From a methanotrophic endosymbiont of Bathymodiolus puteoserpentis (Logatchev) (lineage in GTDB: Bacteria; Pseudomonadota; Gammaproteobacteria; Methylococcales; Methylomonadaceae), in the NCBI RefSeq assembly GCF_900128525.1, contig NZ_FQTQ01000012.1, forward strand, positions 1-64,000: DNA of 64,000 bases. The letters run 5' to 3'. The notes under the pieces were generated by a model. That model was not told the DNA's origin and searched no databases. It worked only from the letters and a program-made list of their open reading frames with translations. A program made the translations under genes and the position numbers. Position 1 is the stretch's first letter. Every line of letters starts with the position of its first letter. Shown here one piece after another: positions 12,843 to 61,969 of this stretch.

Positions 12843-13433
12843 TTATAGTTTATGTTTATTCAATGCCAACCATTGAATAGCAATAATGGGAATTGCTGAC
12901 TCTATACACCCATCTTCAATCATGGCATAAGCCGCTGCAAAACTGACGGTAGAAACGAGAATATCCTCATGCTCATGATCCAAGCCATGAATTCCACCTA
13001 CCTCTGTCGCATCAATACGCCCATAAAATAAAGAAATTTTCTCCGACGTGCCGCCTGGCGAAGTATAAAACTCATTAATTAAACGCATTTCTTGTACCAT
13101 ACAGCCTGCCTCTTCTTTCGATTCTCTATAAGCAACTTCTTCTGCAGTTTCCCCCTCCTCTATCGCACCTGCAACAATCTCCAGTAACCAGGCTTTCTCT
13201 CCCACATCTTGCTGTCCCATAGGCCCCATACGAAACTGCTCAATAATCACGACTTTATCCGCATCAGGGTCATAAAGGAGTACGGCTACGCAATTACCTC
13301 GCTGAAATAATTCTCGCGTCAAAACATCACTCCAGCCACCGGCAAATAAACGATGCCGTACTTGATAACGATTTAAACTAAAAAAACCTTGATACATAGG
13401 CTCTTGAGAAATCACTTTAAATTCTTTTTTCAT
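12843..13433 (-). CDS. nudF: ADP-ribose pyrophosphatase (Nudix hydrolase)
   Basis: Nudix hydrolase splitting ADP-ribose to AMP and ribose-5-phosphate. The 196-residue protein carries the Nudix box in GAIEEGETAEEVAYRESKEE followed by AG, and the NudF-type context: FRMGPMGQQDVGEKAWLLEIVAG upstream and FYTSPGGTSEKISLFYGRID downstream. Length matches NudF (about 200-210). Divergent from htpX. Confidence 0.92.
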   Translation of the reverse strand: MKKEFKVISQEPMYQGFFSLNRYQVRHRLFAGGWSDVLTRELFQRGNCVAVLLYDPDADKVVIIEQFRMGPMGQQDVGEKAWLLEIVAGAIEEGETAEEVAYRESKEEAGCMVQEMRLINEFYTSPGGTSEKISLFYGRIDATEVGGIHGLDHEHEDILVSTVSFAAAYAMIEDGCIESAIPIIAIQWLALNKHKL

Positions 13434-13518
13434 AACACCCTACTTAACTGTTGCAATTTAGTTTTCATACCACCAATATATAGATTAAGTCATTATTTAT
13501 TTTTCGGAGCATAAAACC

Positions 13519-14394
13519 ATGATGCGAATATTTCTTTTCTTAGCCACTAACATTGCCATTATGGTAGTCGTTAGTATTATTTTTAGCCTTTTCGGTCTAA
13601 ATGGTATTTTAGCGTCTAATGGGGTAGACCTTGACCTTAACTCCTTACTAATTCTATCCGCCGTTATCGGTATGACTGGTTCGTTTATTTCTTTAGCTAT
13701 GTCTAAATGGTCAGCGAAAAGAGGGATGGGCGTACAAATTATCGAACACCCGCAAAACCAAACAGAACAATGGCTAATGGATGTTGTTACCCGTCAAGCA
13801 CGTATCGTCGACATTGATACACCTGAAGTCGGGATATTCCAATCAGTCGATCCCAATGCCTTTGCCACCGGCATGACTAAAAACAGTTCATTAGTCGCTG
13901 TCAGTACTGGCTTGTTACAAAACATGTCACCTGATGAAGTAGAAGCCGTTATCGGCCATGAAATGACTCATGTTGCCAATGGCGATATGGTCACTATGGC
14001 GCTAATGCAGGGCGTGGTAAATACTTTTGTGTATTTCTTCGCTACAATTATTGGCCATACTGTAGACCGCGTTATCTTCAAAAATGAAGAAGGTCATGGC
14101 ATAGCCTATTTCGTCACGCAAATGATTGCACAAATTGCCCTATCCTTTTTGGCTTCTATGTTGGTTATGTGGTTCTCTCGTTACCGCGAATTCAAAGCAG
14201 ATGCAGGCGGTGCAAAACTAGCCGGTAGAGAGAAAATGATCAATGCCTTAAGAGCCTTAGCGCGTGCTCATGAACCTCGAGAATTACCGGATCAATTTGC
14301 GGCATTGGCCATTAATGGAGGTGCTGTACATAAATTATTTATGAGCCACCCCCCATTAGAAGAACGTATTGCGGCATTGCAAAATCAACGTTAG
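13519..14394 (+). CDS. htpX: protease HtpX
   Basis: Membrane zinc metalloprotease involved in quality control of inner-membrane proteins. The 291 residues have two N-terminal membrane segments, the catalytic HEMTH motif at residues 147-151 with the distal glutamate region REFKADAGGAKL, and two further hydrophobic segments in between. The C-terminal MSHPPLEERIAALQ is characteristic of the family. Length is normal. A good hairpin terminator follows. Confidence 0.96.
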   Translation: MMRIFLFLATNIAIMVVVSIIFSLFGLNGILASNGVDLDLNSLLILSAVIGMTGSFISLAMSKWSAKRGMGVQIIEHPQNQTEQWLMDVVTRQARIVDIDTPEVGIFQSVDPNAFATGMTKNSSLVAVSTGLLQNMSPDEVEAVIGHEMTHVANGDMVTMALMQGVVNTFVYFFATIIGHTVDRVIFKNEEGHGIAYFVTQMIAQIALSFLASMLVMWFSRYREFKADAGGAKLAGREKMINALRALARAHEPRELPDQFAALAINGGAVHKLFMSHPPLEERIAALQNQR

Positions 14395-40315: not shown

Positions 40316-41062
40316 ATGAAAACAACGGCAATTATTGGCGGTTCAGGCCTAACTCAAATAGAATCTATTAACGTTATTGATGAGCAACTTTATATAACAC
40401 CTTATGGCGATCCATCTGCTGCATGTATTATCGGTGAGCTTGGTGAACAGAAAATTATTTTCCTCGCACGCCACGGTAATCCACATACTGTTGCACCTCA
40501 TAAAATCAACTACCGCGCCAATATTTGGGCATTAAAAGAAGCCGGTGCAGAACAAATTATTGCGGTGACCGCTGTGGGCGGCATTACCCCAGAAATGTCC
40601 CCCGCACGCATCGCCATTCCTGCGCAAATTATTGACTATAGCTATGGCCGTGAACACAGCTTTTTAGCGGAAGATAATAACCCCGTGCAGCATATTGATT
40701 TTAGCTACCCCTATAATGAAAGCTTAAGAGAACAATTAATTGCTAGCGCAAAAACCCTTAAGCTAGACATACAACCTAGAGGCGTCTATGGTTGTACTCA
40801 GGGGCCACGCCTAGAAACTGCTGCTGAAATTTCACGCATGGAACATGATGGTTGTGACTTGGTTGGCATGACAGGCATGCCAGAAGCTGCACTCGCTAGA
40901 GAACTGGAAATACCCTATGCTAACTGTTCGGTTATTGCCAATTGGGCTGCAGGAAAAATAACCGGTGAAATCACCCTGTCAGAAATTATCAAAAATTTAG
41001 AGCAAGGGATGGCCGATACCGAACAATTATTACGCCATTTTTTATTAAGTAACACACAATAA
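40316..41062 (+). CDS. mtnP: S-methyl-5'-thioinosine phosphorylase (MTAP/PNP family)
   Basis: Cleaves methylthioinosine (or methylthioadenosine) in polyamine and methionine salvage. Start at ATG 40316 (MKTTAIIGGSGLTQIE), giving 248 aa; the frame extends upstream but without the family N-terminus. Motifs: IIGGSG, LARHGNPHTVAPHKINYRAN, AVGGITPEM, YGCTQGPRLETAAEI and LVGMTGMPEAALA. The hypoxanthine phosphoribosyltransferase next door fits the MTIP route, where hypoxanthine is the released base. Confidence 0.88.
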   Translation: MKTTAIIGGSGLTQIESINVIDEQLYITPYGDPSAACIIGELGEQKIIFLARHGNPHTVAPHKINYRANIWALKEAGAEQIIAVTAVGGITPEMSPARIAIPAQIIDYSYGREHSFLAEDNNPVQHIDFSYPYNESLREQLIASAKTLKLDIQPRGVYGCTQGPRLETAAEISRMEHDGCDLVGMTGMPEAALARELEIPYANCSVIANWAAGKITGEITLSEIIKNLEQGMADTEQLLRHFLLSNTQ

Positions 41063-41224
41063 ATAACCCCCCCTATATTGTGCAGGACTGTTGCTTTTCT
41101 TAAAAGTGTAAACTCCTTGTATAACAAGCCATACAATTATTTCTGCAGTGTTGAATACGGATAAAAAAATCAGCAAGATAGCTCGGTATTTATTGCGGGC
41201 CATCCCCTTAACCAAGGAAAAAAT

Positions 41225-42088
41225 ATGACTAATAGTATGACGGCTTTTGCCAATAGTGAAGTAGAATTTGAAAACTTGACCTTAAACTGTGAATTACGTT
41301 CAGTAAACCACCGTTACTGTGATATTAGCTTAAAAATTCCCGAGCGCTTTCGCTTTGCTGAGGCCGATATACGTAGCGCCATCAGCGACAAATTAAAACG
41401 CGGCAAAATAGAATGCAGCCTGAGCTATAAAAAACATAACTTAATGCAACACACTGTATCGGTTGATATGCAGGCTGTTAAAGCGTTATTAGCCACCACA
41501 AAGAGCATAGAGCAACTTATGGGCACATCGCGCTCATTCTCAGCACTAGAGGTGCTTGCATTCCCTGGTATACAAGTCGAAAAAGAAGGCGATAAAGTAG
41601 CGCTGCAACAAGCACTACAACAGCTACTACAAATAGCCATTGATAATTTATTAGCCGCGCGCCAGCGGGAAGGGGCACAACTGAGCCACCTTATCCGTAC
41701 TCGTTGTATCAAATTACAAAAATTTGTCGGCCAAGCTCACGCGCGTATGCCTATTGTTTTAGAGCTATTACGCACAAAATTTAAATCACATATTGCTGAA
41801 TTAGTTGCTGAATCTAATGAGCGTATTGAACAGGAAATGGTTTTATTAACGCAAAAATTAGATGTTGATGAAGAATTAGATCGCTTAGATACACATATCA
41901 TCGAAGTCTTACGTGTTTTAGAGCAAGATGGGCCTGTGGGTCGTCGTTTAGATTTTCTTATGCAAGAAATGAATCGTGAAGCGAATACTTTAGGTTCAAA
42001 ATCAGCTGACAAAGAAATGACTGCATTTTCTATAGAGATGAAAGTACTCATTGAGCAAATGCGCGAACAAGTCCAGAACATAGAGTAA
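41225..42088 (+). CDS. yicC: YicC family protein (element integrated at its 3' end)
   Basis: Conserved YicC family, linked to stress survival and RNA degradation in E. coli. The 287 residues begin MTNSMTAFANSEVEFENLTL and include NHRYCDISLKIPERFRFAE, KRGKIECSL, LDVDEELDRLDTHIIEVLRV and GRRLDFLMQEMNREANTLGSK, ending QVQNIE. Length is normal. The last codons and the stop lie inside the 20-bp attL sequence, so the gene is intact despite the insertion. In many gammaproteobacteria yicC precedes gmk directly. Confidence 0.95.
   Translation: MTNSMTAFANSEVEFENLTLNCELRSVNHRYCDISLKIPERFRFAEADIRSAISDKLKRGKIECSLSYKKHNLMQHTVSVDMQAVKALLATTKSIEQLMGTSRSFSALEVLAFPGIQVEKEGDKVALQQALQQLLQIAIDNLLAARQREGAQLSHLIRTRCIKLQKFVGQAHARMPIVLELLRTKFKSHIAELVAESNERIEQEMVLLTQKLDVDEELDRLDTHIIEVLRVLEQDGPVGRRLDFLMQEMNREANTLGSKSADKEMTAFSIEMKVLIEQMREQVQNIE
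42069..42088 (+). repeat. attL, 20-bp core in the yicC 3' end
   Basis: AAGTCCAGAACATAGAGTAA, identical to attR at 52508-52527; flanking bases differ on both sides. It covers the last five codons and the stop of yicC. Integration here regenerates the gene end. Confidence 0.92.
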
Positions 42089-42126
42089 CTAACCATACAT
42101 CACCATACATCACCACAACCCCATAT

Positions 42127-42151
42127 AAGCCGCTATCTAAGCGGCTTTTTT
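42127..42151 (+). terminator. rho-independent terminator just inside attL
   Basis: AAGCCGCT (42127-42134) pairs with AGCGGCTT (42140-42147), followed by a run of T. It lies 40 bases after the yicC stop and is element-encoded, so transcription from yicC should end here. A small 11-bp direct duplication (CCATACATCAC) precedes it. Confidence 0.85.
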
Positions 42152-42195
42152 GTGTCTTACGCTATCATATATATTCATACTGACCTACAATAAAA

Positions 42196-42215
42196 GGGCA
42201 CACGCGAGGGCACAC
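42196..42215 (+). repeat. left pair of GGGCACAC sites (putative integrase arm sites)
   Basis: GGGCACAC at 42196-42203 and 42208-42215, 12 bases apart. The same pair with the same spacing occurs near attR (52426-52445). Symmetric placement near both ends is typical of integrase or excisionase arm-binding sites. Confidence 0.65.
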
Positions 42216-42269
42216 ACCTACAAATAGGGGGTAACTTACGTATGCCCACCTACTCACATTTGCTATTTT

Positions 42270-42649
42270 ACCGAATAAAAAAAAGTAAAAACGCGGGGGT
42301 AAGCTACCCTCAAAACCCTCATAAGGAATGTGCATGAAATAACTTAGGCAACTTATAAAGTTGTTGCGTCAGGAATGGCAGTATAATTCCATTGCCAATT
42401 CTTAAATTGAACTTGCCTAAATTAATTTGTGCTCATTCCTAAGGTGGTTTTGTATATTTATTTACCGAATAAAAAAAAGTGAAAACGCGGGGGTAAGCTA
42501 CCCTCAAAACCCTCATAAGGTGGTTTTGTATATTTATTTACCGAATAAAAAAAAGTAAAAACGCGGGGGTAAGCTACCCTCAAAACCCTCATAAGGTGGT
42601 TTTGTATATTTATTTACCGAATAAAAAAAGTAAAAACGCTGGGGTTAGG
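42270..42649 (+). repeat. 76-bp tandem repeat array (about 3.5 copies)
   Basis: Units start at ACCGAAT: 42270 (interrupted by a 115-bp insertion), 42464, 42540 and a diverging partial copy at 42616. Copies 2 and 3 are each 76 bp and nearly identical. Each full copy has GAATAAAAAAAAGTAAAAAC, then the palindrome GGGTAAGCTACCC (42297, 42491, 42567), then CTCAAAACCCTCATAAGG. The same sequence, inverted, recurs at 49398-49452 and 50985-51044. No protein is encoded; it resembles a replication or regulatory repeat. Confidence 0.85.
42325..42439. mobile_element. 115-bp MITE-like insertion in the repeat array
   Basis: An extra 115 bp interrupts the first repeat copy. Its ends are imperfect inverted repeats (GGAATGTGCATGAAATAAC at the left; the right end read inversely is GGAATGAGCACAAATTAATT), and both continue with TTAGGCAA. 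It is flanked by TAA on each side (42322-42324 and 42440-42442), while uninterrupted copies have a single TAA there. This is direct evidence of insertion with a 3-bp (or TA) duplication. No coding capacity. Confidence 0.8.
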
Positions 42650-42686
42650 TACTGACAAACCGACAAATTCTAAAATAGGTTACAAA

Positions 42687-43955
42687 ATGCTATTAAATGA
42701 TAAACAAATACAAGCTTGGATACGCAACAACGAGCGATTCGAGCAAAGAGGTGATGATTTAGTGAAAGGCTTATTTTTAAGTTATAGAAAAAATACAGCC
42801 ACTCCTTCATGGCGGTTTAGATACCGCCTATCAGGAATGAGGAAAGTAATCACACTTGGTAGCTATGCTAACTTGTCTTTATCCAATGCAAGAAAGCAGG
42901 CGAAAGAGTTAAGAGCGAGGGTGACGCTTGGCTATGACGTAGCCACAGAAAAGCAGAATAGAAAGCTAGATAGCATAGAAAAAAACGAGGCAAAGAAAAA
43001 CGCTTTAACGGCTGGACAATTAGCAGATAAATATTTTACAGACACCATATTGGGCAACTGGAAACACCCCAATATAGTACGCTCCAAAATTGAAAAGGAT
43101 ATTAAGCCTTATATAGGCAATATGCCAGCAGCAGATGTTAAACCGTTACACATAGACGCGATACTAAGGAAAGTTGTTGATCGAGGCGCGCCAACCGTGG
43201 CTAATGATGTATTGAGAATACTTAAGCATATCTTTGATTATGCTATTAAGCGGCATATTGTCGAATATAACCCAGCGTCAGCTTTTGATCTATCAGATGC
43301 AGGGGGCAAGGAAAGCGCGCGGGAAAGGTTTTTAAGCCGTAATGAGTTAGTATTATTTTTTAAAGCAATGCGACAGGCTAAAGGGTTTTCTCATGTGAAC
43401 CTTGTAACAATGCGCTTACTCTTAATGCTAGGAGTAAGAAAGCGCGAGCTTATCGAATCAAAAATAAAGGATTTTGACCTAGATAATGGCACTTGGACAC
43501 TTGCCAAGGAAAGCACCAAGACTAAAGCCGCTATTATTATCCCATTACCAAGTCAGGCTATCGACTCAATAAACGAACTGATAGCCCTATCAGATAGTAA
43601 TGATTGGCTATTACCAGCCAGAAAAGCACAGGATAGGCGATTACCTTACATAAGCGAATCAACCCTGAATGTAGCCCTTAAAAAAGTCCTTAATACCCTA
43701 CCAGACGACATAGAGCCGTTTACCATTCACGACTTTAGACGAACGGCAAGAACACATATAGAGTCATTAGGTTTTCCTCCCCATATAGGGGAGCGTTGCA
43801 TTAATCACAAAATAAAGGGCGTTGAGGGAGTGTACAACCGATATGATTATTTTGATGAGCGTAAGAAAGCCTTACAAGCATTGGCTAACTTTCTGAATGA
43901 GTGTGAGGGTAATCAAGATTTTAATATTATCCCCTTTAAAAAAAAAGCAGGGTAA
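42687..43955 (+). CDS. int: tyrosine-type site-specific integrase
   Basis: Phage/satellite-type integrase of 422 aa. The N-terminus is a DUF4102-like arm-binding domain (WRFRYRLSGMRKVITLGSYA, LSNARKQAKELRARV). Catalytic residues: Arg251 in LMLGVRKREL, His348 and Arg351 in HDFRRTARTH, His374 in INHKIKGVEG and the likely nucleophile Tyr383 in VYNRYDYF. It is the first gene after attL and points inward, as in P4-like elements that integrate by this enzyme class. It most probably targets the yicC 3' end seen here. Confidence 0.95.
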   Translation: MLLNDKQIQAWIRNNERFEQRGDDLVKGLFLSYRKNTATPSWRFRYRLSGMRKVITLGSYANLSLSNARKQAKELRARVTLGYDVATEKQNRKLDSIEKNEAKKNALTAGQLADKYFTDTILGNWKHPNIVRSKIEKDIKPYIGNMPAADVKPLHIDAILRKVVDRGAPTVANDVLRILKHIFDYAIKRHIVEYNPASAFDLSDAGGKESARERFLSRNELVLFFKAMRQAKGFSHVNLVTMRLLLMLGVRKRELIESKIKDFDLDNGTWTLAKESTKTKAAIIIPLPSQAIDSINELIALSDSNDWLLPARKAQDRRLPYISESTLNVALKKVLNTLPDDIEPFTIHDFRRTARTHIESLGFPPHIGERCINHKIKGVEGVYNRYDYFDERKKALQALANFLNECEGNQDFNIIPFKKKAG

Positions 43956-44066
43956 CACTAACAACCTGATATATAAAAATTACATGTCACTGACTGTATT
44001 AAAATGATAACGAGTGATACAGAAAGCTATAATAAAACAATAGCCACCCTTAAAAGAGGAACAACC

Positions 44067-44249
44067 ATGAATGAGCAATTTATAACCGATAAATCAGGGC
44101 AAAAAATATCCGTCATTTTGCCAATACATGAATATGATGAATTATTAGAGGATTTAAGAGACCTTGCTACCGTTGCAGAATTAAAAAACGAGCCTACCGT
44201 ATCGCTTGATAGTGTAATCAAAAAGCTTAAAGCCAATGACCTGCTATAA
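44067..44249 (+). CDS. antitoxin of a RelE-type toxin-antitoxin pair
   Basis: A 60-residue protein from ATG 44067 (MNEQFITDKSGQKISVILPI), with AGAGGA just upstream. It has the beta-strand then IHEYDELLEDLRDL pattern typical of Phd/YefM-like or short DUF2281-type antitoxins. The stop overlaps the toxin start by 14 bases, the usual translational coupling of antitoxin and toxin. Confidence 0.8.
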   Translation: MNEQFITDKSGQKISVILPIHEYDELLEDLRDLATVAELKNEPTVSLDSVIKKLKANDLL

Positions 44250-44499
44250 GGTAGAGCTAAAAAAATCAGCAGAAAAAAGTCTACTCAAATTACCTAAACC
44301 TGTTATCGCAAAGGTAATTTACTTGCTACAAGGGCTTGTACATGAACCACGCCCAAACGGGTGCAAAAAATTAACAGGCTCAACTAATACCTATCGAATC
44401 AGGACGGGGGATTATCGCGTGGTTTATTCCATCTTTGATGACGTACTAACAATAGATGTTATTAAGATCGGACACCGTAAAGAGATTTATAAGAATTAG
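44236..44499 (+). CDS. RelE/ParE-family toxin
   Basis: An 87-residue protein of the RelE/ParE superfamily. The pattern YKVELKKSAEKSLLKLP, LVHEPRPNGCKKLTGS, then YRIRTGDYRVVYSIFDD and IGHRKEIYKN is characteristic. RelE members cleave mRNA on the ribosome, while ParE members poison gyrase; the YRIRxGxYRxxY and C-terminal H/R/Y favour RelE. It may stabilise the element. Confidence 0.88.
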   Translation: MTCYKVELKKSAEKSLLKLPKPVIAKVIYLLQGLVHEPRPNGCKKLTGSTNTYRIRTGDYRVVYSIFDDVLTIDVIKIGHRKEIYKN

Positions 44500-44512
44500 T
44501 TTATAATCAAAC

Positions 44513-44566
44513 ATCACCCTAGGCTTAGCGGCTGAAAGAGCGGACTCATTCCCCGCTTTGGGTGAT
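44513..44566 (+). other. long-range hairpin after the toxin gene
   Basis: ATCACCC (44513-44519) pairs with GGGTGAT (44560-44566), and inside it AGCGG (44527-44531) pairs with CCGCT (44553-44557). No strong T run follows. It could be a terminator-like or regulatory RNA structure between the TA pair and the next gene. Confidence 0.45.
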
Positions 44567-44607
44567 ACCTTTCTGGAATGATATGCTTTGAATGGAGTGT
44601 TATATTT

Positions 44608-45210
44608 ATGATAAATGAGATACATAAAACTGATATTGTAAGCGCAATTGAATTAAACATGAGGTCTCTTAATGATGAAATTGTAATTGCTATAGAGGAA
44701 TCCACAAAATGCGAGATAAAGAGGACTTATATTAAGAAGTTCGCAGCATTGATACTAATGGATAATAGTGAATATTACTACAAACTAATACCTAAAATTA
44801 AAATTGAATTAGGCATTAACTGGAGTGAAGACAAACATTTAAAGGCGATTGATGCTAGCCTAGTTAACTTATCAATTGCTTATTTTTTTATGAGGGTATC
44901 TTATATTGCTTTAGAGCAGGAGGGGGAAGTTACCGAGGCTATAAACTATATGAATGACGCGGCTATTAGTTTTGGAGAATATTTAGGGGTAACTAGAGAA
45001 ATAGAAAATTACTCACAGGAAAGGAAAGAAATAGCAAAAAAAGCATCTAAAGCCAAGCATAAAGTATCAAGTGCATATAAAGAAACAGTGATTAACCACT
45101 ACTTATCCAATAATTTCAAAAGCAAAGAACAAGCAGCAGAGAAAATAAAATCAGAACTAAATTTAAGCTACGCAACAAGAACTATACGCACATGGCTTAT
45201 TAACGTATAA
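44608..45210 (+). CDS. element-encoded protein of unknown function with C-terminal HTH-like end
   Basis: 200 aa from ATG 44608 (MINEIHKTDIVSAIELNMRS). No family recognised. The middle is helical (YYYKLIPKIKIELGINW, NLSIAYFFMRVSYIALEQEG). The C-terminus (FKSKEQAAEKIKSELNLSYA, then TRTIRTWLINV) looks like a small helix-turn-helix, suggesting DNA binding. It lies between the toxin-antitoxin pair and the iteron-like repeats. Confidence 0.65.
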   Translation: MINEIHKTDIVSAIELNMRSLNDEIVIAIEESTKCEIKRTYIKKFAALILMDNSEYYYKLIPKIKIELGINWSEDKHLKAIDASLVNLSIAYFFMRVSYIALEQEGEVTEAINYMNDAAISFGEYLGVTREIENYSQERKEIAKKASKAKHKVSSAYKETVINHYLSNNFKSKEQAAEKIKSELNLSYATRTIRTWLINV

Positions 45211-45225
45211 AAAACCTACATTTTT

Positions 45226-45281
45226 CTAAGCAGACTGTACCCCCTACTAAGCAGACTGTACGCCATACTAAGCTAAGCGAC
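45226..45281 (+). repeat. 21-bp-spaced iteron-like direct repeats
   Basis: CTAAGCAGACTGTAC occurs at 45226-45240 and 45247-45261, with a degenerate third copy CTAAGCTAAGCGAC at 45268-45281. The period is exactly 21 bp, two helical turns, so a bound protein would sit on one face of the DNA. It lies upstream of the first AlpA-like gene; it may be an operator or origin iteron. Confidence 0.7.
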
Positions 45282-45343
45282 TTCTCAAAGTTTTTTAAGC
45301 AATTAAAATTACCTCGAACCTAACAGCAATCGAGGTATTTTAA

Positions 45344-45565
45344 ATGAAGCAAATAGAACGAATCACCACACAAGAATTTTGTAATCAATCGAAACAATCC
45401 AAGACTACGCTTTGGCGTAAATCAAAAACAGACCCCACTTTTCCAAAAGCAGAATTTATTTTTAACAAAAAACTGTATCGACAAGATGCGGTAACGGCTT
45501 GGATTGAAGCGCAGGTACAAGCTGAGCAAACACATAATAACCTCTTACCTAAAGGGGCAGCTTAA
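45344..45565 (+). CDS. AlpA-like transcriptional regulator (first)
   Basis: A 73-residue MerR/AlpA-type winged-helix protein: ITTQEFCNQSKQSKTTLWRK (HTH), DPTFPKAEFIFNKKLYRQDAVTAWIEAQ (wing and helix). AlpA proteins activate integrase/excision in P4-like elements. It is preceded by the 21-bp repeats, which may be its binding sites (inference). Confidence 0.82.
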   Translation: MKQIERITTQEFCNQSKQSKTTLWRKSKTDPTFPKAEFIFNKKLYRQDAVTAWIEAQVQAEQTHNNLLPKGAA

Positions 45566-45787
45566 ATGGATTTAGTCATTATCAACTGAAAAAAAAGAAA
45601 CCACAAAGTTTAAAGCCTTTACACGCCTTATATTTAAAGGGCTTAGTGTGAATTTATGCGCTTACTTTATAAGTGTTTTGTAACTTTATTACACTTTTTA
45701 AACCAAAACTTTAATGCGCTTTAAAATCTTTTTTTCATGCTTAGGCATAAGCTATCACCCGACCCAATAACAACGCATACCGAGAAT

Positions 45788-46015
45788 ATGACTACCAAGA
45801 AAAATCAACACCAAGAACCCAAACAACTGCCCAACATAGGCTTTGTAAGAACAAAAACATTGCTGCAATTTGTACCGTTTTCCGCATCCACGTTATCGAG
45901 AAAAGTTAAATCAGGCGATTTTCCAGCACCCGTAAAACTATCGGAGGGCATATCAGCCTTTAAAGTGGAAGAGGTGCGCGAGTGGATAGAATCGAAACAA
46001 CAAGGAGTAGCATAA
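45788..46015 (+). CDS. AlpA-like transcriptional regulator (second)
   Basis: 75 aa from ATG 45788 (MTTKKNQHQEPKQLPNIGFV). It has the AlpA pattern VRTKTLLQFVPFSASTLSRK and SGDFPAPVKLSEGISAFKVEEVREWIES. A longer upstream frame exists but lacks family features. It is the second AlpA-like gene of the element, with a different sequence from the first, so they may control different steps. Confidence 0.85.
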   Translation: MTTKKNQHQEPKQLPNIGFVRTKTLLQFVPFSASTLSRKVKSGDFPAPVKLSEGISAFKVEEVREWIESKQQGVA

Positions 46016-46089
46016 ATGTTATTGACAGCAACACAAAGCAGCGCTACCCTATGCAGCAAGTCAGTGACACAAGTTACTGAAATACTCAT

Positions 46090-46275
46090 GTTAAGCATGG
46101 GGCGGTTTGAACCCCGCAAGAATAACGGTGTAGGCGATTACACCTTGTGTAGATCGCTTTTTTTATGCCCTAAATCCCTCTTGAGTACGCTCAAGAACCC
46201 TACTTTATGGTGGGAGCGATTGTTGGAGCAGCTCCGTTATGCTGCGGTTCAAGCCAACATGAACTCCCACCGCCC
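46090..46275 (+). ncRNA. strongly folding RNA-like segment (putative)
   Basis: Four hairpins in 180 bases: GGGG/CCCC around CGGTTTGAA near 46098, GGTGTA/TACACC around GGCGAT, CTTGAG/CTCAAG around TACG, and a three-tier stem GGTGGGAG (46209-46216) with CTCCCACC (46264-46271), TGTTGG (46221-46226) with CCAACA (46254-46259) and GCAG with CTGC. An open frame runs through it from 46016 but its predicted peptide is low-quality. Possible satellite immunity/attenuation RNA; inference. Confidence 0.4.
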
Positions 46276-46327
46276 AAAGATTGAACCCTTTAGCGGTGGC
46301 TTATCCTTAAATAACGGAGCAAGCCAG

Positions 46328-46702
46328 ATGCACAACCATACCCAAAAACCGCTAACAATTCACGTTAGCCCCATTAAAGACCCTGAAACATTAGATAACA
46401 TCATTAATGAGATATTCAGAACAGTAGGCACTTGTCAATTTGCCGAGAAAAATGCGCTTGAATACGGAGAATTAAGCCGCGTTGAGATTGAAAGCTTAAA
46501 GCGTGATGCCGAATATCTAATCAATGCCTGTAATAAGGCATTAAGAACACCACACCCACCTAAAGACACTTTAACCAGTCGGTTTAACGTATTGGCAAAA
46601 GACACAAGGCAGCTAATAGCCAAACAAGTTAGCTTTAATCAAGCCAAACAATACCCCGATGCAATCGTGAAATTTTCTTGCATGGTTGGGGGTGCGGCAT
46701 GA
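46328..46702 (+). CDS. element-encoded protein of unknown function
   Basis: 124 aa when started at ATG 46328 (MHNHTQKPLTIHVSPIKDPE), with GGAG about 10 bases upstream. The same frame is open back to 46016 through the structured segment, so a 228-residue form is formally possible. The body is helical (LDNIINEIFRTVGTCQFAEK, LGE-like acidic stretches). No domain recognised. It overlaps the next gene by 4 bases (ATGA). Confidence 0.65.
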   Translation: MHNHTQKPLTIHVSPIKDPETLDNIINEIFRTVGTCQFAEKNALEYGELSRVEIESLKRDAEYLINACNKALRTPHPPKDTLTSRFNVLAKDTRQLIAKQVSFNQAKQYPDAIVKFSCMVGGAA

Positions 46703-46971
46703 TTAATATAGAAATAGAAAGCCCCTTTAACAAGACCGACACAGAAGAATTAAATACTTTACTTAATAGCGCAACCTTTCGCACTATTCAGGGGATGAGT
46801 GAACAAATTCCAAAGGATGATAAGCAATTGAAAGCCGAGTCAATCATGACTCTTTGTGATTTTGCCGACAGTGGCGCGTTAGTCTTCCCTAACGACCTAG
46901 TAAAGAACGCATTTTTTACGCTATTGGCTATGGCTTTGGATGATGAGATTAAATCAGGGGGTGAGTTATGA
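46699..46971 (+). CDS. small element protein of unknown function
   Basis: 90 aa from ATG 46699 (MINIEIESPFNKTDTEELNT). Acidic, helical, no recognised family. It overlaps both neighbours by 4 bases (ATGA on each side), a tight operon of small genes often seen in satellites. Confidence 0.6.
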   Translation: MINIEIESPFNKTDTEELNTLLNSATFRTIQGMSEQIPKDDKQLKAESIMTLCDFADSGALVFPNDLVKNAFFTLLAMALDDEIKSGGEL

Positions 46972-47114
46972 GCCGATACATATTAGAGCTAAGCCTAAAA
47001 GACCGACCTTTTATGACGGGTGAGTTTTCTTCTGAACAGGAAGCTATAGAATCCCTTGAAGCGTTTAAGGATATTTACGGAAAAGACCTTAGTTACACTT
47101 TAGAGCAGGCATAA
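46968..47114 (+). CDS. very small element protein of unknown function
   Basis: 48 aa from ATG 46968 (MSRYILELSLKDRPFMTGEF, then SSEQEAIESLEAFKDIYG), overlapping the previous gene by 4 bases. The amino-acid composition looks protein-like and the gene continues the ATGA-coupled series. A hairpin follows at once. No family recognised. Confidence 0.55.
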   Translation: MSRYILELSLKDRPFMTGEFSSEQEAIESLEAFKDIYGKDLSYTLEQA

Positions 47115-47116
47115 AA

Positions 47117-47149
47117 AAGCCCCTATTAACTAACGATTAACAAGGGCTT
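47117..47149. terminator. imperfect hairpin after the small-gene operon
   Basis: AAGCCC (47117-47122) pairs with GGGCTT (47144-47149), with a partly paired AT-rich centre and A/T tracts outside. It closes the series of overlapping small genes. Confidence 0.5.
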
Positions 47150-47238
47150 ATATCTAGGATAAGATTTTTTACCACCAACCAGCGGTGTTAATTATAGCAA
47201 TATTCTAGGTTTTTGCCCTAACAAAAAAAGGTTAGGAC

Positions 47239-47466
47239 ATGAAAAAAATAACACAAGATTTAGTCGTGCTTGAATGGCTAAAAGAAAATTCCATCATTAC
47301 CCCAATGACCGCCCTAAATGAATTGGGTTGTTATCGACTATCGGCACGAATTCACCAATTAAGAAAGCAAGGTTATCAGATCAGCACTAAACGAATTGCC
47401 AAGCAAGGCAGGTTTGGAATGGTTTGTTTTGCGGAGTATCGCTTAGAAAATAAAGTGGGGCTCTAA
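47239..47466 (+). CDS. winged-helix/HTH protein
   Basis: 75 aa; LEWLKENSIITPMTALNELG, then CYRLSARIHQLRKQGYQIST, is the phage-type HTH found in small regulators (HTH_39-like). Probably DNA-binding. It ends by overlapping the next gene by one base and leads the replication-type operon of the element. Confidence 0.75.
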   Translation: MKKITQDLVVLEWLKENSIITPMTALNELGCYRLSARIHQLRKQGYQISTKRIAKQGRFGMVCFAEYRLENKVGL

Positions 47467-47804
47467 TGCCTAAATTGCCCCCATACGCTAAAAATATACC
47501 TAATAACCAAGAATATATAATCATTTGCACAGGCTCAGAGGCTTGGAGCAGAGCGCAGTCTATTAGCTGGATGAATGAGGTTGTTAAAACATTATTACCT
47601 TTAGGTGATGCTATAAATGCTTATAGATGGGACTTTGTTTACTGCAAGGAAGTTATTTTATTTTCTAATGGAACACTGGAAACTTATGATCGACTAACCG
47701 AGCTATCAAGGTCACTGCTAAAACATGGCGCGCTAAAGGTTTTATGGTGTATTCCAAAGTTTAAGCGACTAATGAAGTTTATTAGCAAGGAGGCGACAGC
47801 ATGA
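47466..47804 (+). CDS. element-encoded protein of unknown function
   Basis: 112 aa (MPKLPPYAKNIPNNQEYIIICT). A compact, possibly alpha/beta protein with LRLSRSLLKHG-like helices near the end (LTELSRSLLKHGALKVLWCI). No family recognised. Overlaps the DUF3987 gene by 4 bases, so it is probably translated with the replication protein. Confidence 0.6.
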   Translation: MPKLPPYAKNIPNNQEYIIICTGSEAWSRAQSISWMNEVVKTLLPLGDAINAYRWDFVYCKEVILFSNGTLETYDRLTELSRSLLKHGALKVLWCIPKFKRLMKFISKEATA

Positions 47805-49360
47805 GCATGAGCCCTAACGATGAAATTATAGACAATGGAGTTATTGCACTGGAAACACAGCCACCTATTGAGTGGGGAGAATTAAAGCCTATTCCAGACG
47901 CTTTAAAAGCGGTACAGCCATTTAACTTTAATTTATTACCTGACTCATTAAGAATGTGGATTCAGGATATATCAGAGCGGATGCAATGCCCACCTGACTA
48001 CCCTGCTATCGGTGCAATGGTAACTTTATCGGCAGTCATTGGTAGGTCGGTCGGCATAAAACCTAAAGCTTATGATGATTGGCTTGTGGTGGGTAATTTA
48101 TGGGGTTTTGCAGTAGGTAGACCCAGCGCAATGAAAACGCCAGCATTATCAGAGGCATTAAAGCCACTTAAACGCTTAGAGGTCGAAGCACGCAACCGAC
48201 ATAATGAGCAATTAGACGAGTATAAGATTGATGCTGAAATGTTAAAGCTAACAGCGGAACAAATAACCAAGGATGCAAAGAGCGCGATTAAAAAAGGAGA
48301 AAATGCAAAAGCAAGGGAAATGTTAGCCATGTCAGCCGATGAAGATACACCAGCACCAACAAGGAAAAGATACATTGTTTATGATGCCACTATTGAGAAA
48401 TTAGGAGAGCTATTGAATGAAAACCCTAACGGCTTACTTCTCTTTAGGGATGAGATTAGCGGCTGGTTAAAGACTTTAGACCGCGAAGACCGAGCCAATG
48501 ATAAGGAGTTTTGGATTGAATCATTTGGCGGCTTAGGCTCATACACTTATGACCGTATAGGTAGGGGTACGATTGATATACAAGCAATAACAACAAGCGT
48601 ATTAGGCGGTATTCAGCCAGCAAAATTACAGCCTTATATTATAAATAATATGGCTGGTGGCTCTTATGATGACGGCTTCATACAGCGGTTACAGTTAGCG
48701 GTTTATCCAGAGCAAAACGGAAGATGGAAATACATAGACCGTTACCCAAACAAGGACGCTAAAGACGAAGCTTTTAATGTTTATGATGCGATTGCCAACA
48801 AGATTGAATTCCCAGAGCCAGAAGACGAGGAAATACCTTATATTCGATTTAGTGAGGATGCTCAGTCTTTATTCATTGAATGGCTAACCGAGCTTGAGAT
48901 TGAGCTACGAGAGGGGAGCTTGCATCCTGTTATGGAATCACACCTAACTAAATACCGTTCACTTATCCCAAGCTTAGCTTTAATCATTCACATTGCAGAA
49001 CTAGCAGCAGAACAAAAAAACACCATTGAGCCAGTCAGTAAAAAATCACTTATTAAGGCTATTCAGTGGGGCGAGTACCTGCGAACCCATGCGGAAAGAA
49101 TTTACGGCATAGGCTTAAACTCAGAACGCACAGCCGCGCGTTTAATTTTAACGAAGATAGAGCAAGGCAAGTTATCTAGTGGGTTTACTGCTAGAGATAT
49201 AAAACAAAGCGGATGGTCAGGATTAACAGATAACGATACCGTCAAGGATGCGTTGCAGTTGCTTGAAGATTTTAACTATATCGTTGGAATAAAAACAACA
49301 GGCGCAAATAGGCAGACTTTTAAATATTCAATCAATCCTGAATTCATAAAAAAAACCTGA
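47801..49360 (+). CDS. DUF3987 (YfjI-like) putative replication protein
   Basis: 519-residue P-loop protein. GRPSAMKTPALSEALKPLKR is the DUF3987-type Walker A (GxPSxxKT) and LLLFRDEISGWLKTLDRED the Walker B. It also has GRGTIDIQAITTSVLGGIQP and a C-terminal winged-helix-like end (FTARDIKQSGWSGLTDNDTV). Such proteins in P4-like satellites act as primase/helicase-like initiators; exact activity is unproven. It is followed after a hairpin by the SF2 helicase. Confidence 0.85.
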   Translation: MSMSPNDEIIDNGVIALETQPPIEWGELKPIPDALKAVQPFNFNLLPDSLRMWIQDISERMQCPPDYPAIGAMVTLSAVIGRSVGIKPKAYDDWLVVGNLWGFAVGRPSAMKTPALSEALKPLKRLEVEARNRHNEQLDEYKIDAEMLKLTAEQITKDAKSAIKKGENAKAREMLAMSADEDTPAPTRKRYIVYDATIEKLGELLNENPNGLLLFRDEISGWLKTLDREDRANDKEFWIESFGGLGSYTYDRIGRGTIDIQAITTSVLGGIQPAKLQPYIINNMAGGSYDDGFIQRLQLAVYPEQNGRWKYIDRYPNKDAKDEAFNVYDAIANKIEFPEPEDEEIPYIRFSEDAQSLFIEWLTELEIELREGSLHPVMESHLTKYRSLIPSLALIIHIAELAAEQKNTIEPVSKKSLIKAIQWGEYLRTHAERIYGIGLNSERTAARLILTKIEQGKLSSGFTARDIKQSGWSGLTDNDTVKDALQLLEDFNYIVGIKTTGANRQTFKYSINPEFIKKT

Positions 49361-49378
49361 AAACGGCTAACCTATGAA

Positions 49379-49452
49379 CCCTCAAAACCCTCATAACCCA
49401 CTTTTGAGGGTTTTGAGGGTAGCCTACCCCCGCGTTTTTACTTTTTTTATTT
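49379..49452. repeat. inverted copy of the 76-bp repeat with a 15-bp hairpin
   Basis: CCCTCAAAACCCTCA (49379-49393) pairs perfectly with TGAGGGTTTTGAGGG (49405-49419), loop of 11. Then GGGTAGCCTACCC (49417-49429) and a T-rich tail. The right half, read inversely, matches the left array. It lies between the DUF3987 and SF2 helicase genes and could also terminate transcription. Confidence 0.8.
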
Positions 49453-49462
49453 AAAGAATATT

Positions 49463-50812
49463 ATGAAAATTACACTATCCAGCCGCATCAAAATAAGAAC
49501 CACGCCCGACAACGAGCAACAGATTATTAAACAATTCACTTTTGCTAACCCTAAGTATCAGGATGCTATAAGTTTTGGCAGAAGCACACGTGATATTGAT
49601 CGTAATCTTTGTTTAATTGATCGTGAGGTAAACAGACCTATGGCGCGATTAATTGCCCCAATAGGCATACTTGATTATTTGCTACAAACCTTTAGCCCAG
49701 AAGTAAACGACGAACGCTGCACAATAAAGGTAAGCATTCCATTCACAGGAGCATTAAGACCGTATCAGCTTAAATTCGTTAACGATGCCCTTATTGCTAA
49801 GGGTGGGTTAATGATCGCTGCGACAGGTGCAGGGAAAACCGTTTCAGGTATTGCACTGGCTTCACGACTTCAACAGCGCACCTTGATATTAGTTAAAAGC
49901 AAAGACCTTGCTAAACAATGGATGGATGCCATAAAGCAGTTTACAGGGCTGGACGCTGGCTTAATTGGTGGTGGTAAAAATTCAGAGGGTGAGCAGTTTA
50001 CCATTGGCTTGACGCAATCACTTTGTAAGCGCGATTGTTCACAGCTTAACTATGGCTTAGTGATAGCGGATGAATGTCATAACCTACCCGCCTGCCAAGC
50101 TTTTACCGTGATTAATGGTTTAAATGCTAAATATAAATATGGATTATCAGCAACACCACAACGGCGCGATAACATGGAATTTATGATTCACGGGGCATTG
50201 GGTGATGTATGCGCGGAAATTAACCAAGACCAGTTACAGGGTAAAGTCTTACCCGTGTGCGTACAGAAAATACAGCATGAATTTAATGCAGACGTGGAAA
50301 GCTGGACAGATTTTTTAAATGTATTGGTGGATGATGAAAGCCGAAACCTTATTATTGTTGGGCATGCTATAAAAGCATCAAAGGCAATGGGTACGGTTAT
50401 CTTATGCGCTCAGATTAGGCATTGTGAGTTATTGGCTTCACTATGTCATGATCGAGATGCAAAAGCATTGGTATTGCATGGACAGTTACCCGCAAAGGTA
50501 CGGGCAGAACGCATGGCACAAGCACCCGATGCACAATTAATTATAGGTACATTATCCTTATTATCCGAAGGTATCGACTTACCCCACTTATCAGCCTTAA
50601 TTTTTGGCGCACCTGTATCAGCTTCAGTAGATCGCGAAACCCCAGCCGCCACCAGATTAATACAAAGCATAGGACGTTGTAGGCGACCTTATCCAAACAA
50701 AAGCAAAGCCTTTGTATTAGATATTATTGATAAGTGCGGCTTCGGTGTGTCGGCATGGAATAAACGCGTCACCATTTACCAGCAGCAAGGTTTTAAAGTC
50801 ATGAGGGGCTAA
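49463..50812 (+). CDS. SF2 helicase, UvsW/XPB-like
   Basis: 449-residue superfamily 2 helicase. Motifs: Q-like FTGALRPYQLKF, Walker A AATGAGKT (residues 119-126), DECH (203-206), SATPQRR (motif III), LIIGTLSLLSEGIDLPHLSA (V) and QSIGRCRRPYPNKSKAFVLD (VI). The closest analogy is to phage UvsW- or XPB-type translocases that remodel forks and branches. The gene is flanked on each side by a same-orientation copy of the element's dispersed repeat. Either a replication helicase of the element or a cargo gene. Confidence 0.85.
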   Translation: MKITLSSRIKIRTTPDNEQQIIKQFTFANPKYQDAISFGRSTRDIDRNLCLIDREVNRPMARLIAPIGILDYLLQTFSPEVNDERCTIKVSIPFTGALRPYQLKFVNDALIAKGGLMIAATGAGKTVSGIALASRLQQRTLILVKSKDLAKQWMDAIKQFTGLDAGLIGGGKNSEGEQFTIGLTQSLCKRDCSQLNYGLVIADECHNLPACQAFTVINGLNAKYKYGLSATPQRRDNMEFMIHGALGDVCAEINQDQLQGKVLPVCVQKIQHEFNADVESWTDFLNVLVDDESRNLIIVGHAIKASKAMGTVILCAQIRHCELLASLCHDRDAKALVLHGQLPAKVRAERMAQAPDAQLIIGTLSLLSEGIDLPHLSALIFGAPVSASVDRETPAATRLIQSIGRCRRPYPNKSKAFVLDIIDKCGFGVSAWNKRVTIYQQQGFKVMRG

Positions 50813-50984
50813 ATAATGCAACCGCTATATAACACGCCACCAGCAAGCCATAAATGAAAGACTTTAAAAAGCCACCTTATCTGTAATCAAAAAAATATAA
50901 CCAACTCAAATACTTAATGAAAAAAGTAAACACAGTTAATTAGTTAGTAATATTGCTTTTTTATTGGGAAATAAATCTACAAAA

Positions 50985-51044
50985 TTACCTTATGAGGGTT
51001 TTGAGGGTAGCCTACCCCCCGCGTTTTCACTTTTTTTATTTAGA
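50985..51044. repeat. second inverted copy of the 76-bp repeat
   Basis: TTATGAGGGTTTTGAGGG, then GGGTAGCCTACCC (51005-51017), then CCGCGTTTTCACTTTTTTTA, the reverse of the left array unit. Together with 49379-49452 it brackets the SF2 helicase gene. Confidence 0.8.
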
Positions 51045-51079
51045 AAAAACCGAAATAGTGACAAGACAGGACAAAAACA

Positions 51080-51322
51080 ATGACCGATAACTACACCGCC
51101 AAAAACATCAAAATACAGCACATAACCACCGATACTTGGAGTATGGCAATAAGCCTTGCTGAGGAGTTTAATTACAATATTAAGATTATTGAACGCGGCT
51201 TAGAGGCGTGTAAATTAGCACACGTACCAACCAGTTATTTTATAGACCGATACTTAAAAAAGCTTGATATACCGATAAATGAAGATGTAAATGCAATTTA
51301 CAAAGAATTAAGTAACGGTTAA
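51080..51322 (+). CDS. element-encoded protein of unknown function
   Basis: 80 aa (MTDNYTAKNIKIQHITTDTW). Mostly helical (NIKIIERGLEACKLAHVPTS), no recognised domain. It stands alone between the second repeat copy and the Mor-like gene; a GC-containing hairpin (AGCCGCC...GGCGGCTTTTT, near 51350) follows and probably terminates it. Confidence 0.6.
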   Translation: MTDNYTAKNIKIQHITTDTWSMAISLAEEFNYNIKIIERGLEACKLAHVPTSYFIDRYLKKLDIPINEDVNAIYKELSNG

Positions 51323-51469
51323 AAACCGAACAAGCAAGCAACCAATACCCAAGCCGCCGCGATAATATCAAGGCGGCTTTTTATTGTCTTTCTTTAATGC
51401 GCATTAAAATACAGATAGCCATAAATCAAGTTTAATCAAGTTTTACGCCACGATTAAAAAAGGTGATTA

Positions 51470-51823
51470 ATGGCTACTCAAGAACTACCAGAAGTAATCG
51501 AACACATACCCGAAATAATACAAGAACTACCCGAAATCATCCAAGATATTTACGCCTATAGCTTGGAATCCATAAAAAACAACCCAGCAATAAGCGATAA
51601 AGACGCGGCTAATATTGCCCTTGATATAGCACAAAGTACACGTCATAGATGGGGTGGTATTCTTGTCTATATTCCTAAAGGCGATGCACTGGATACCAAA
51701 AACAAAAAACAAAATATACGGCATGATTTTAACGGTAGTAATCATATTGACTTAGCCCGCAAATATAAAGTTAGTGTGCAATCAATCTATAAAACAGTAA
51801 AAACAGAAGCGAGTAAAAAATAA
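51470..51823 (+). CDS. Mor-family transcriptional activator
   Basis: 117 aa related to the Mu Mor/C activators: PEIIQDIYAYSLESI, ALDIAQSTRHRWGGILVYIP (dimerisation/beta part), then the HTH NHIDLARKYKVSVQSIYKTV. In Mu, Mor switches on middle operons; in a satellite it could activate element or helper-phage genes (inference). Its stop overlaps the next start codon by one base. Confidence 0.85.
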   Translation: MATQELPEVIEHIPEIIQELPEIIQDIYAYSLESIKNNPAISDKDAANIALDIAQSTRHRWGGILVYIPKGDALDTKNKKQNIRHDFNGSNHIDLARKYKVSVQSIYKTVKTEASKK

Positions 51824-52306
51824 TGATAACCGCAAAAGATATAAGAAAAAAACCAAGACTTAAAAAATAAAATTGCAGAATTAACAAGCTCTTACATAAA
51901 GAACACCAGCTTAATAGATTTAAAATACAGAGAGCATACAGAGTTAAACAGGGAAGCCGGTAACATTACAAGGGAAATCAATCAAGCTGAAAATATGGGG
52001 CATGATATTCCAAAAGAACTATTCAAAAACAGGAAAACTTATTTATATTCTTAGCGCGTCTACACTAAAACAATCATAGCCGCCGCCAATGCTTACCAAT
52101 TAGCAGAGAAAAAAGCAGGTAGAGAAGTTAGCGTTGCTGGTGCGGTTTCTTATGTGACTAAAGGCAAAAGCAAAGAACCTAACCCAGTAATTAACGAAAC
52201 TAAAACAATCATAGCCGCCGCCAATGCTTACCAATTAGCAGAGAAAAAAGCAGGTAGAGAAGTTAGCGTTGCTGGTGCGGTTTCTTATGTGACTAATAAA
52301 GGTTGA
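51823..52306 (+). pseudogene. decayed gene with 45-codon in-frame duplication
   Basis: ATG 51823 opens MITAKDIRKKPRLKK then stops. One base later a frame reads KIAELTSSYIKNTSLIDLKY and on to a TAG at 52052. After that stop the same frame continues to TGA at 52304 and contains TKTIIAAANAYQLAEKKAGR and following residues twice (98 identical bases at 52064-52161 and 52199-52296, period 135). A frameshift in an A-run plus one TAG separate it from an intact gene. The family is not recognised. Confidence 0.7.
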
Positions 52307-52425
52307 ACGGTATTTTTATGTTTAATTAGGTTACCTTATGCGCTGGTAAAGGCTATCATTGCATTTATTTAATTTTCTTGTGTCATACCGTGTCAGTGAG
52401 CGCCAAGGGTACGCACACAAAAAAA

Positions 52426-52445
52426 GGGCACACAGGCGGGCACAC
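52426..52445 (+). repeat. right pair of GGGCACAC sites
   Basis: GGGCACAC at 52426-52433 and 52438-52445, the same spacing and orientation as the left pair at 42196-42215. Likely integrase arm sites, 60-80 bases from attR. Confidence 0.65.
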
Positions 52446-52449
52446 TATT

Positions 52450-52478
52450 TTGCAACCAATAATTAAATATCTTATAAA
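52450..52478 (+). promoter_or_regulatory. putative outward promoter toward gmk
   Basis: TTGCAA (52450-52455), 17-base spacer, TATAAA (52473-52478): a good sigma70-type promoter inside the right end of the element pointing to gmk. It may replace the promoter lost when the element split yicC from gmk. Confidence 0.55.
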
Positions 52479-52507
52479 ACATTAACTTAATAGCTCACTA
52501 AATATTA

Positions 52508-53152
<645 letters not shown>

Positions 53153-60283: not shown

Positions 60284-61969
<1,686 letters not shown>

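Follow-up and report, generated by a model that had tools for sequence, protein, structure and literature searches.

The window analysed here, 64,000 nucleotides from a methanotrophic endosymbiont of Bathymodiolus puteoserpentis, carries a mobile element of about 10.4 kb inserted in the 3′ end of the gene which we take to be yicC; the ORF beyond the other end of the element is presumably gmk, both names being assigned from the protein sequences. The attachment repeat corresponds to the 3′ end of the upstream ORF, and just inside both element ends lies a pair of GGGCACAC boxes, which are probably integrase arm sites; a single further occurrence of this box was found in the window. The element encodes a tyrosine integrase, excisionase-type regulators (one of them matching phrog_66 at 2.9e-8), a winged-helix protein, a DUF3987 protein, a helicase of superfamily SF2 and a Mor-type activator. 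The coordinates of the features are collected in Table 1; loci of relatives are referred to below by our L numbers.

Table 1. Features of the mobile element, numbered along the window
Feature	Position	Strand	Remarks
attL	42069..42088	+	3′ end of yicC; exact 20-bp direct repeat of attR
Pair of GGGCACAC boxes, left end	42196..42215 (42196, 42208)	+	12-nt spacing as at the right end
Putative iteron array on the integrase side, three inverted copies	42295..42594	-	Half-site pairs 42307/42316, 42501/42510, 42577/42586
Tyrosine integrase	42687..43955	+	Phage_integrase 2.2e-15; phrog_1
DUF3987 (YfjI-like) protein, predicted MCM-like AAA+ initiator helicase	47801..49360	+	DUF3987 1.1e-88
Codons of residues 462-472 (helix 2 and turn of the predicted winged helix)	49184..49216	+	Segment of the partial Mantel tests
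Main putative iteron dyad	49379..49419		CCCTCAAAA CCCTCATAA, 5-nt loop, two inverted CCCTCAAAA
AT-rich stretch by the dyad	49425..49462		74% AT against 60% in the window
XPB/UvsW-like SF2 helicase	49463..50812	+	Intact, 449 aa; ResIII 1.9e-20, Helicase_C 3.6e-10
Second, half-dyad repeat copy, 3′ of the helicase	50990..51042	+	Half-sites 50990, 50999
Pair of GGGCACAC boxes, right end	52426..52445 (52426, 52438)	+	12-nt spacing
attR	52508..52527	+	Exact 20-bp repeat of attL

Three other features of the element were observed along the way. An Rfam int-alpA RNA (RF02996) was matched at 44512-44580 with 36.0 bits, the gathering score being 35.8. Near the right end, an exact 98-bp direct repeat (52064-52161 and 52199-52296) lies outside the listed ORFs of at least 60 aa. 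Positions 44236-44499 encode a toxin-like protein of 87 aa, which we take to be RelE-like and which, read by eye, is four residues apart from its counterpart in the L047 element. The latter also sits beside yicC and has a similar integrase, with a Toprim protein in place of DUF3987 (by eye).

The helicase gene is bracketed by two copies of a repeat of about 50 nt, which lie in the same orientation some 1.6 kb apart and share 96% identity over 50 nt. With as many as three mismatches allowed, the repeat, TGAGGGTTTTGAGGGTAGCYTACCCCC, has five copies in the window, at 49405 and 50993 on the plus strand and at 42295, 42489 and 42565 on the minus strand, the last two integrase-side copies being 76 nt apart. 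At the same tolerance it did not occur in any of 100 dinucleotide shuffles of the window, and the bracketing of the helicase reported in the sequence-only reading is thus well founded. A slightly shorter repeat pattern recovered only the same five copies across the whole 3.23-Mb assembly, all of them inside the element. The repeat was absent from the genomes of 60 relatives (up to three mismatches) and from viral contigs (exact pattern); no second copy of the element turned up in these collections.

The copies are unequal. Their unit is a half-site made of CCCTC and an A/T-rich tail, CCCTCA(A/T)AA, of which the element holds twelve paired copies: six on the integrase side, four at 49379-49419 and two at 50990-51007. 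Lone matches occur elsewhere in the window at 44888, inside the element, and at 60695. The left bracketing copy therefore belongs to a full dyad of four half-sites, whereas the right copy and the three integrase-side copies have one half-site pair each. In the scanned region 41001-53000 this dyad ranks first, with a score of 51 against 34 for the runner-up, and the AT-rich stretch beside it is inferred to be a candidate unwinding element. Since the dyad starts 19 nt past the DUF3987 stop codon, it belongs to the 3′ end of that gene as much as to the helicase.

The label of UvsW/XPB-like helicase, also proposed beforehand, agrees with the matches of the family profile to XPBII, RAD25/XPB and UvsW chains in the PDB, and the SF2 helicase motifs are conserved across 17 aligned sequences. 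Four relatives were found in named genomes, including one Methylococcaceae MAG and one Methyloprofundus MAG. An order-level search of 311 genomes (E up to 1e-60) gave 24 matches in 21 genomes; two pairs of these are halves of split genes, leaving 22 genes with that of the window included. In 20 of the 22 loci, the first large gene on the upstream side encodes a protein of a replication-type Pfam family: DUF3987 in four (window, L079, L082, L086), Toprim in two (L046, L047), D5_N/DUF5906/Pox_D5 in six (L048, L051, L078, L087, L090, L091) and AAA_25 in eight (L050, L077, L080, L081, L083, L084, L085, L088). For L091, where a contig edge leaves just a short C-terminal piece, the family was assigned at E 2.8e-4, and small ORFs lie between the replication gene and the helicase in L077, L079 and L091. 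The two loci outside the 20 are L049, at a contig edge, and L089, where the helicase is shortened and the upstream gene is a fragment only, resembling the start of the L080 protein. A 29% helicase relative (L052) and an extra flank of the L047 region (L092) were left out of these counts.

Helicases 74-80% identical to that of the window sit behind three of these families in five loci (window, L046, L047, L048 and L051). As far as sequence comparison goes, the helicase is the constant part, while the initiator and the iterons change between elements. Outside the order, a class-level search matched 5 of 369 genomes, two of them already known; among the new loci, the upstream gene encodes DUF3631 in L169 and, in a different context, an HD domain in L170, no upstream family was found for L172, and L171 stands at a contig edge. 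With the helicase as single query no confirmed relative was obtained from viral contigs, and an alignment query of the same contigs yielded 47 distant relatives, for three of which (L094, L095, L096) the context was viewed.

Some of these loci have further genes around the helicase. In L169, a small ORF between initiator and helicase (1145-1501) weakly matches the TubC_N docking domain, at an E of 1.5e-4 that falls short of the curated cut-off, and ORFs of similar size, resembling it by eye, occupy this place in L077 and L091. A PDDEXK_15 phage endonuclease lies 3′ of the helicase in L083 (10906-11358, E 2.5e-20); by eye, a gene of this type follows the helicase in several other loci, and none was seen in the window.

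The gap between initiator gene and helicase holds repeated motifs in most of the loci compared. We counted the best 9-mer of the gap against 200 shuffles in 18 of the 20 loci with a known upstream gene, two gaps being too short. The count was reached by none of the shuffles in nine gaps (L046, L047, L048, L050, L082, L084, L085, L087 and the gap between DUF3987 and helicase in the window) and by at most 2 of 200 in three more (L080, L081, L090), that is, in 12 of 18 overall; L079 is borderline, with 9 of 200 shuffles, and five of the 18 gaps (L077, L078, L083, L088, L091) showed no motif excess. GGTAACA is common to the gaps of L046, L047 and L084; the other motifs differ (AGTGCTG, GTTACG-like, TTGTCAAAG, CCGGACA, TGACAAA, GTGTAGG and more). 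When loci were scanned free of position, the top motif cluster had its centre no more than 150 nt from the start of the helicase in 9 of the 22; in the window the cluster at the helicase start ties with the integrase-side array, and in L048, L079 and L090 the top cluster lies inside the initiator gene, with the gap second.

The 5′ part of the initiator gene was indeed seen to carry a second cluster of the gap motif in L079 (7138-7261), in the oriented loci L082 (2773-2850) and L090 (7885-7957), and in L048 (about 1962-1992). L050 has arrays of an approximately 28-bp repeat (GTTACCCCTCGCGCGCGTGGTG...) at 7751-7901 and 13390-13722, with differing perfect palindromes between the units and a period of about 60 nt.

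DUF3987 is also found without the helicase, and the dyad stays with it. Of the 311 genomes of the order, 45 have relatives of the protein (E up to 1e-40). Only one of the 32 close DUF3987 loci from Methylococcales (set 1, window included) has the helicase after it, namely that of the window, 27 of the 32 having at least 1.3 kb of downstream sequence, and no helicase match was obtained in 29 loci from IMG/VR (set 2). These proportions, 1 of 32 and 0 of 29, indicate that DUF3987 does not need the helicase. Left out of the counts were L057, with a broken DUF3987 gene, and L058 and L059, whose DUF3987 is distant.

All of these loci were scanned blindly, the motif not being supplied, for two 9-mers followed by a loop and two inverted 9-mers. 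In set 1, the best dyad of the locus lies between -6 and +274 nt from the DUF3987 stop in 28 of the 32 loci. The dyads at the stop score 38-51 and the next best elsewhere 30-35, except for 43 in L161 and 42 in L167. The stop dyad of L162 ranks second in its locus and was used for covariation, and none was found at the stop in L034, L163 and L165. In set 2, a dyad scoring at least 39 was found within -150 to +250 nt of the stop in 21 of 29 loci, a number that includes three mutual near-duplicates (L174-L176); the best dyad of L173, L179 and L184 lies 2.5-3.6 kb upstream of the stop. A held-out set of 18 Methylococcales loci (set 3) gave a dyad within -150 to +300 nt, again with a score of at least 39, in 15; no dyad was found at the stop of L217, and the other two misses, L207 and L208, have just 75 and 172 nt of sequence past it. 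Taken as a single query against the viral contigs, the window's DUF3987 gave no pattern match, while an alignment query succeeded. Across loci, the half-sites have an A-tract in common and vary in their first five or six bases. Past the DUF3987 stop of L157, two tandem dyads were noticed by eye, with closely similar flanks and with half-sites of the GTATCTAAA type in one and of the GCTAAA type in the other. At the distant DUF3987 loci L079, L082 and L086 the 9-bp dyad was not seen; L079 and L082 have clusters of another spacing, their motifs having been picked by eye.

The structure of the DUF3987 protein was modelled from an alignment of the window sequence with 23 of the 29 IMG/VR sequences, leaving out the near-duplicates L175 and L176, L183 with its two stops, and the short L199-L201. 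The model has a mean pLDDT of 89.9 and a pTM of 0.87. Over residues 44-441 it aligns with MCM ATPases (best Z 17.5, rmsd 3.7, 265 aligned residues, identity 11-15% among the matches listed), and Foldseek also placed MCM chains first, yet weakly (best E 2.8e-4, TM-score 0.37); a PDB search with the sequence returned weak, probably chance matches, the best at E 0.0062. We read the C-terminus of the model as a winged helix, with helices at 441-454, 464-470 and 478-490 and strands at 494-500 and 505-511. The protein is thus predicted to have an MCM-like AAA+ fold with a C-terminal winged helix.

We compared the half-site with residues 462-472 in a register-free partial Mantel test controlled for residues 240-430 (60-430 in earlier tests). 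Rows were dropped for 3 of the 32 loci of set 1, which have no site at the stop, for 12 of the 29 of set 2 (eight without a qualifying site, four near-duplicates or fragments) and for 3 of the 18 of set 3. The correlation was 0.572 in set 1, where the region had been found (p 0.0005, n 29), 0.328 in set 2 (p 0.006, n 17) and 0.420 in the held-out set 3 (p 0.0005, n 15). The first choice made from set 1, segment 431-475, gave only p 0.053 in set 2 and was narrowed to 462-472 once the set 2 sequences had been seen, which leaves set 3 as the clean test. Relatedness is strong in that set, as the rest of the protein itself tracks the half-site with a rho of 0.52. Segments 440-461 and 491-519 were null in each of the three sets, and 473-490 was also positive in set 2 (p 0.0065) and weakly so in the pooled data (p 0.036). 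Another candidate, segment 220-244, was rejected, as its correlation in set 1 (p 0.0005) did not recur in set 2 (p 0.42).

Single residues could be connected with single bases only in part. In sets 1 and 2, G stands at half-site position 3 in all 16 distinct combinations in which the protein has both R465 and R469, and in 7 of the 27 other combinations; formed on these sets and fixed before the held-out loci, the rule predicted five of six held-out cases correctly. The other rule paired D466 with C at position 5 (Fisher p 0.003 in sets 1 and 2) and was dropped, as it held for only 7 of 15 held-out loci. L181, an IMG/VR locus whose DUF3987 is 40% identical to that of the window, has the same half-site CCCTCAAAA and nearly the same helix, ARDI(K/H)Q. 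Helix 3 is the usual recognition helix of a winged helix; the residues that covary here belong to helix 2 (464-470) and the turn, not to helix 3. Taken together, the covariation suggests that the C-terminal winged-helix domain of DUF3987 sets the iteron specificity.

The presence of the dyad at DUF3987 genes without the helicase, the covariation and the MCM-like model make it most likely that the repeats are iterons of a DUF3987 initiator. In our preferred reading, to which we give a probability of roughly 0.7, DUF3987 would be the replication initiator of the element, the repeats its iterons, and the helicase a factor that works with whatever initiator the element carries. The winged helix of DUF3987 would bind the 9-bp iterons, and the four-iteron dyad 3′ of the gene would be both the main site and the origin. 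There, the dyad probably loads two DUF3987 rings facing in opposite directions, which would open its AT-rich side. The SF2 helicase, encoded by the next gene, probably remodels the opened origin, forks or recombination intermediates, and the repeat copy 3′ of the helicase and those on the integrase side may offer the initiator additional sites, either as origin or for regulation.

These extra copies (50993 and the integrase side) could instead be functionless relics of origins that were duplicated in module swaps, which we consider unlikely. In favor of this, L047 has two clusters of different motif, and 148 bp from the 5′ end of its helicase gene are duplicated exactly (10204-10351 and 10680-10827), likely the scar of an initiator/origin swap; the tandem dyads of L157, with their different half-sites, fit the same picture. 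However, the five copies of the window agree in half-sites and core, and decay following a swap would not leave such agreement.

The sequence-only reading had asked whether the helicase is an exchangeable cassette, perhaps with defence cargo. Such a cassette, for defence or an accessory task, would come and go when the direct repeats on its two sides recombine. The near-identity and common orientation of these repeats, and the rarity of the helicase among close DUF3987 loci, which makes it optional relative to DUF3987, speak in its favor, and so do partial PADLOC matches to helicase-bearing defence proteins. Because repeats of the same orientation flank exactly this gene, its deletion is physically possible, and loss of the helicase in this way is possible; to that extent the earlier proposal stands. 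As an account of the locus, however, the cassette is very unlikely, since bracketing direct repeats were found at only one of the 22 helicase loci, that of the window (comparing 700 nt before the gene with as much as 800 nt behind it, at E up to 0.05), the helicase stays beside a replication gene in 20 of 22, and the dyad is present at DUF3987 loci that have no helicase. Satellites do carry known defence hotspots, according to PMC9122126; in the window, we found no evidence that places the SF2 helicase in one. As a known anti-phage defence helicase it was rejected: the PADLOC matches concern the helicase parts of longer defence proteins only, none is full-length, and none of the five neighbouring proteins scanned matched a PADLOC family. 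The suggestion of defence cargo is therefore not upheld, while the other suggestion of the same reading, that the gene could serve the replication of the element, fits its constant position beside replication genes. As improbable as the cassette is a purely regulatory role, with the repeats as operators for autoregulation of DUF3987 and the integrase or as terminators between genes: three copies do lie directly upstream of the integrase gene and the dyad contains inverted repeats, GGGTAGCCTACCC then CCGCGTTTTT scoring as a terminator-like site, but such sites are not above shuffles (2 found against 2.0 expected in the region), the element specificity and the winged-helix covariation point to binding by the DUF3987 protein, and a repeated motif stands at the same place next to other initiators. 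An operator role alongside the origin role is possible.

The arrangement proposed for DUF3987 and its iterons is reminiscent of that in staphylococcal and other phage-inducible islands. According to PMC7581432, the C-terminal domain of SaPI Rep recognizes an iteron origin directly downstream of its own gene, and PMC6092414 places PICI origins immediately 3′ of the initiator gene. The element resembles these in its predicted helicase-fold initiator, its putative C-terminal DNA-binding domain and the putative iterons immediately 3′ of the gene, as well as in having two iteron sets, an AT-rich stretch and element-specific iterons (PMC7581432, PMC6092414). It differs in that SaPI Reps are named as DUF927 or D5-like type, whereas the putative initiator here is a DUF3987 protein; in that an SF2 helicase follows the putative origin, unlike in SaPIs and PICIs; and in that PICI iteron sets flank the AT-rich region, whereas in the window the AT-rich stretch lies beside the dyad, whose two inverted pairs enclose the 5-nt loop.

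PICMIs of Vibrionaceae are another point of comparison. Their primase is recognized in the family's search model by DUF3987 and DUF5906 profiles, and its deletion results in fewer circular and concatemeric copies (PMC10803314). Both they and the window element have an integrase and a DUF3987-type primase/helicase protein; PICMIs, however, are inserted at fis, with a prototype of 6.1 kb (same source), whereas the window element is at yicC, measures about 10.4 kb and has an SF2 helicase. The word "iteron" is absent from the main text of that paper. DUF3987 and DUF927 ATPases have been predicted as mobile-element helicases in PMC5862659. With MCM AAA+ replicative helicases, DUF3987 shares the predicted fold of residues 44-441, and it differs by a predicted winged helix whose helix 2 covaries with the DNA site. 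T4 UvsW and the archaeal and eukaryotic XPB proteins share the profile of the helicase, which differs from them in being encoded right after replication genes of changing family. The Vibrio satellite PLE, which needs an SF1B helicase from its helper phage in order to replicate (PMC7145576), is a parallel for an accessory helicase in the window element. In the literature on DUF3987 with primases, satellites, iterons or MCM-like helicases, the titles and abstract openings listed mention no such site, and a search joining DUF3987 with helicase and satellite found no paper.

Beyond this element, we would put it at even odds that DUF3987/YfjI is a large family of MCM-like, iteron-binding initiators with a specificity set by helix 2 and an origin at the end of their own gene, that the initiator end and the origin form a swappable plug-in, and that the XPB/UvsW-like helicase is the fixed partner of at least four Pfam families. 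The finding gives a testable function, that of an MCM-like initiator, to a domain of unknown function in satellites, genomic islands and plasmids, and makes its binding site predictable from position and symmetry. An 11-residue segment that covaries with a 9-bp iteron leads to a DNA-recognition code that is testable in vitro. In mobile elements, what look like the borders of a cassette can turn out to be sites of an origin, and the variable part of the module would be the initiator, not the helicase.
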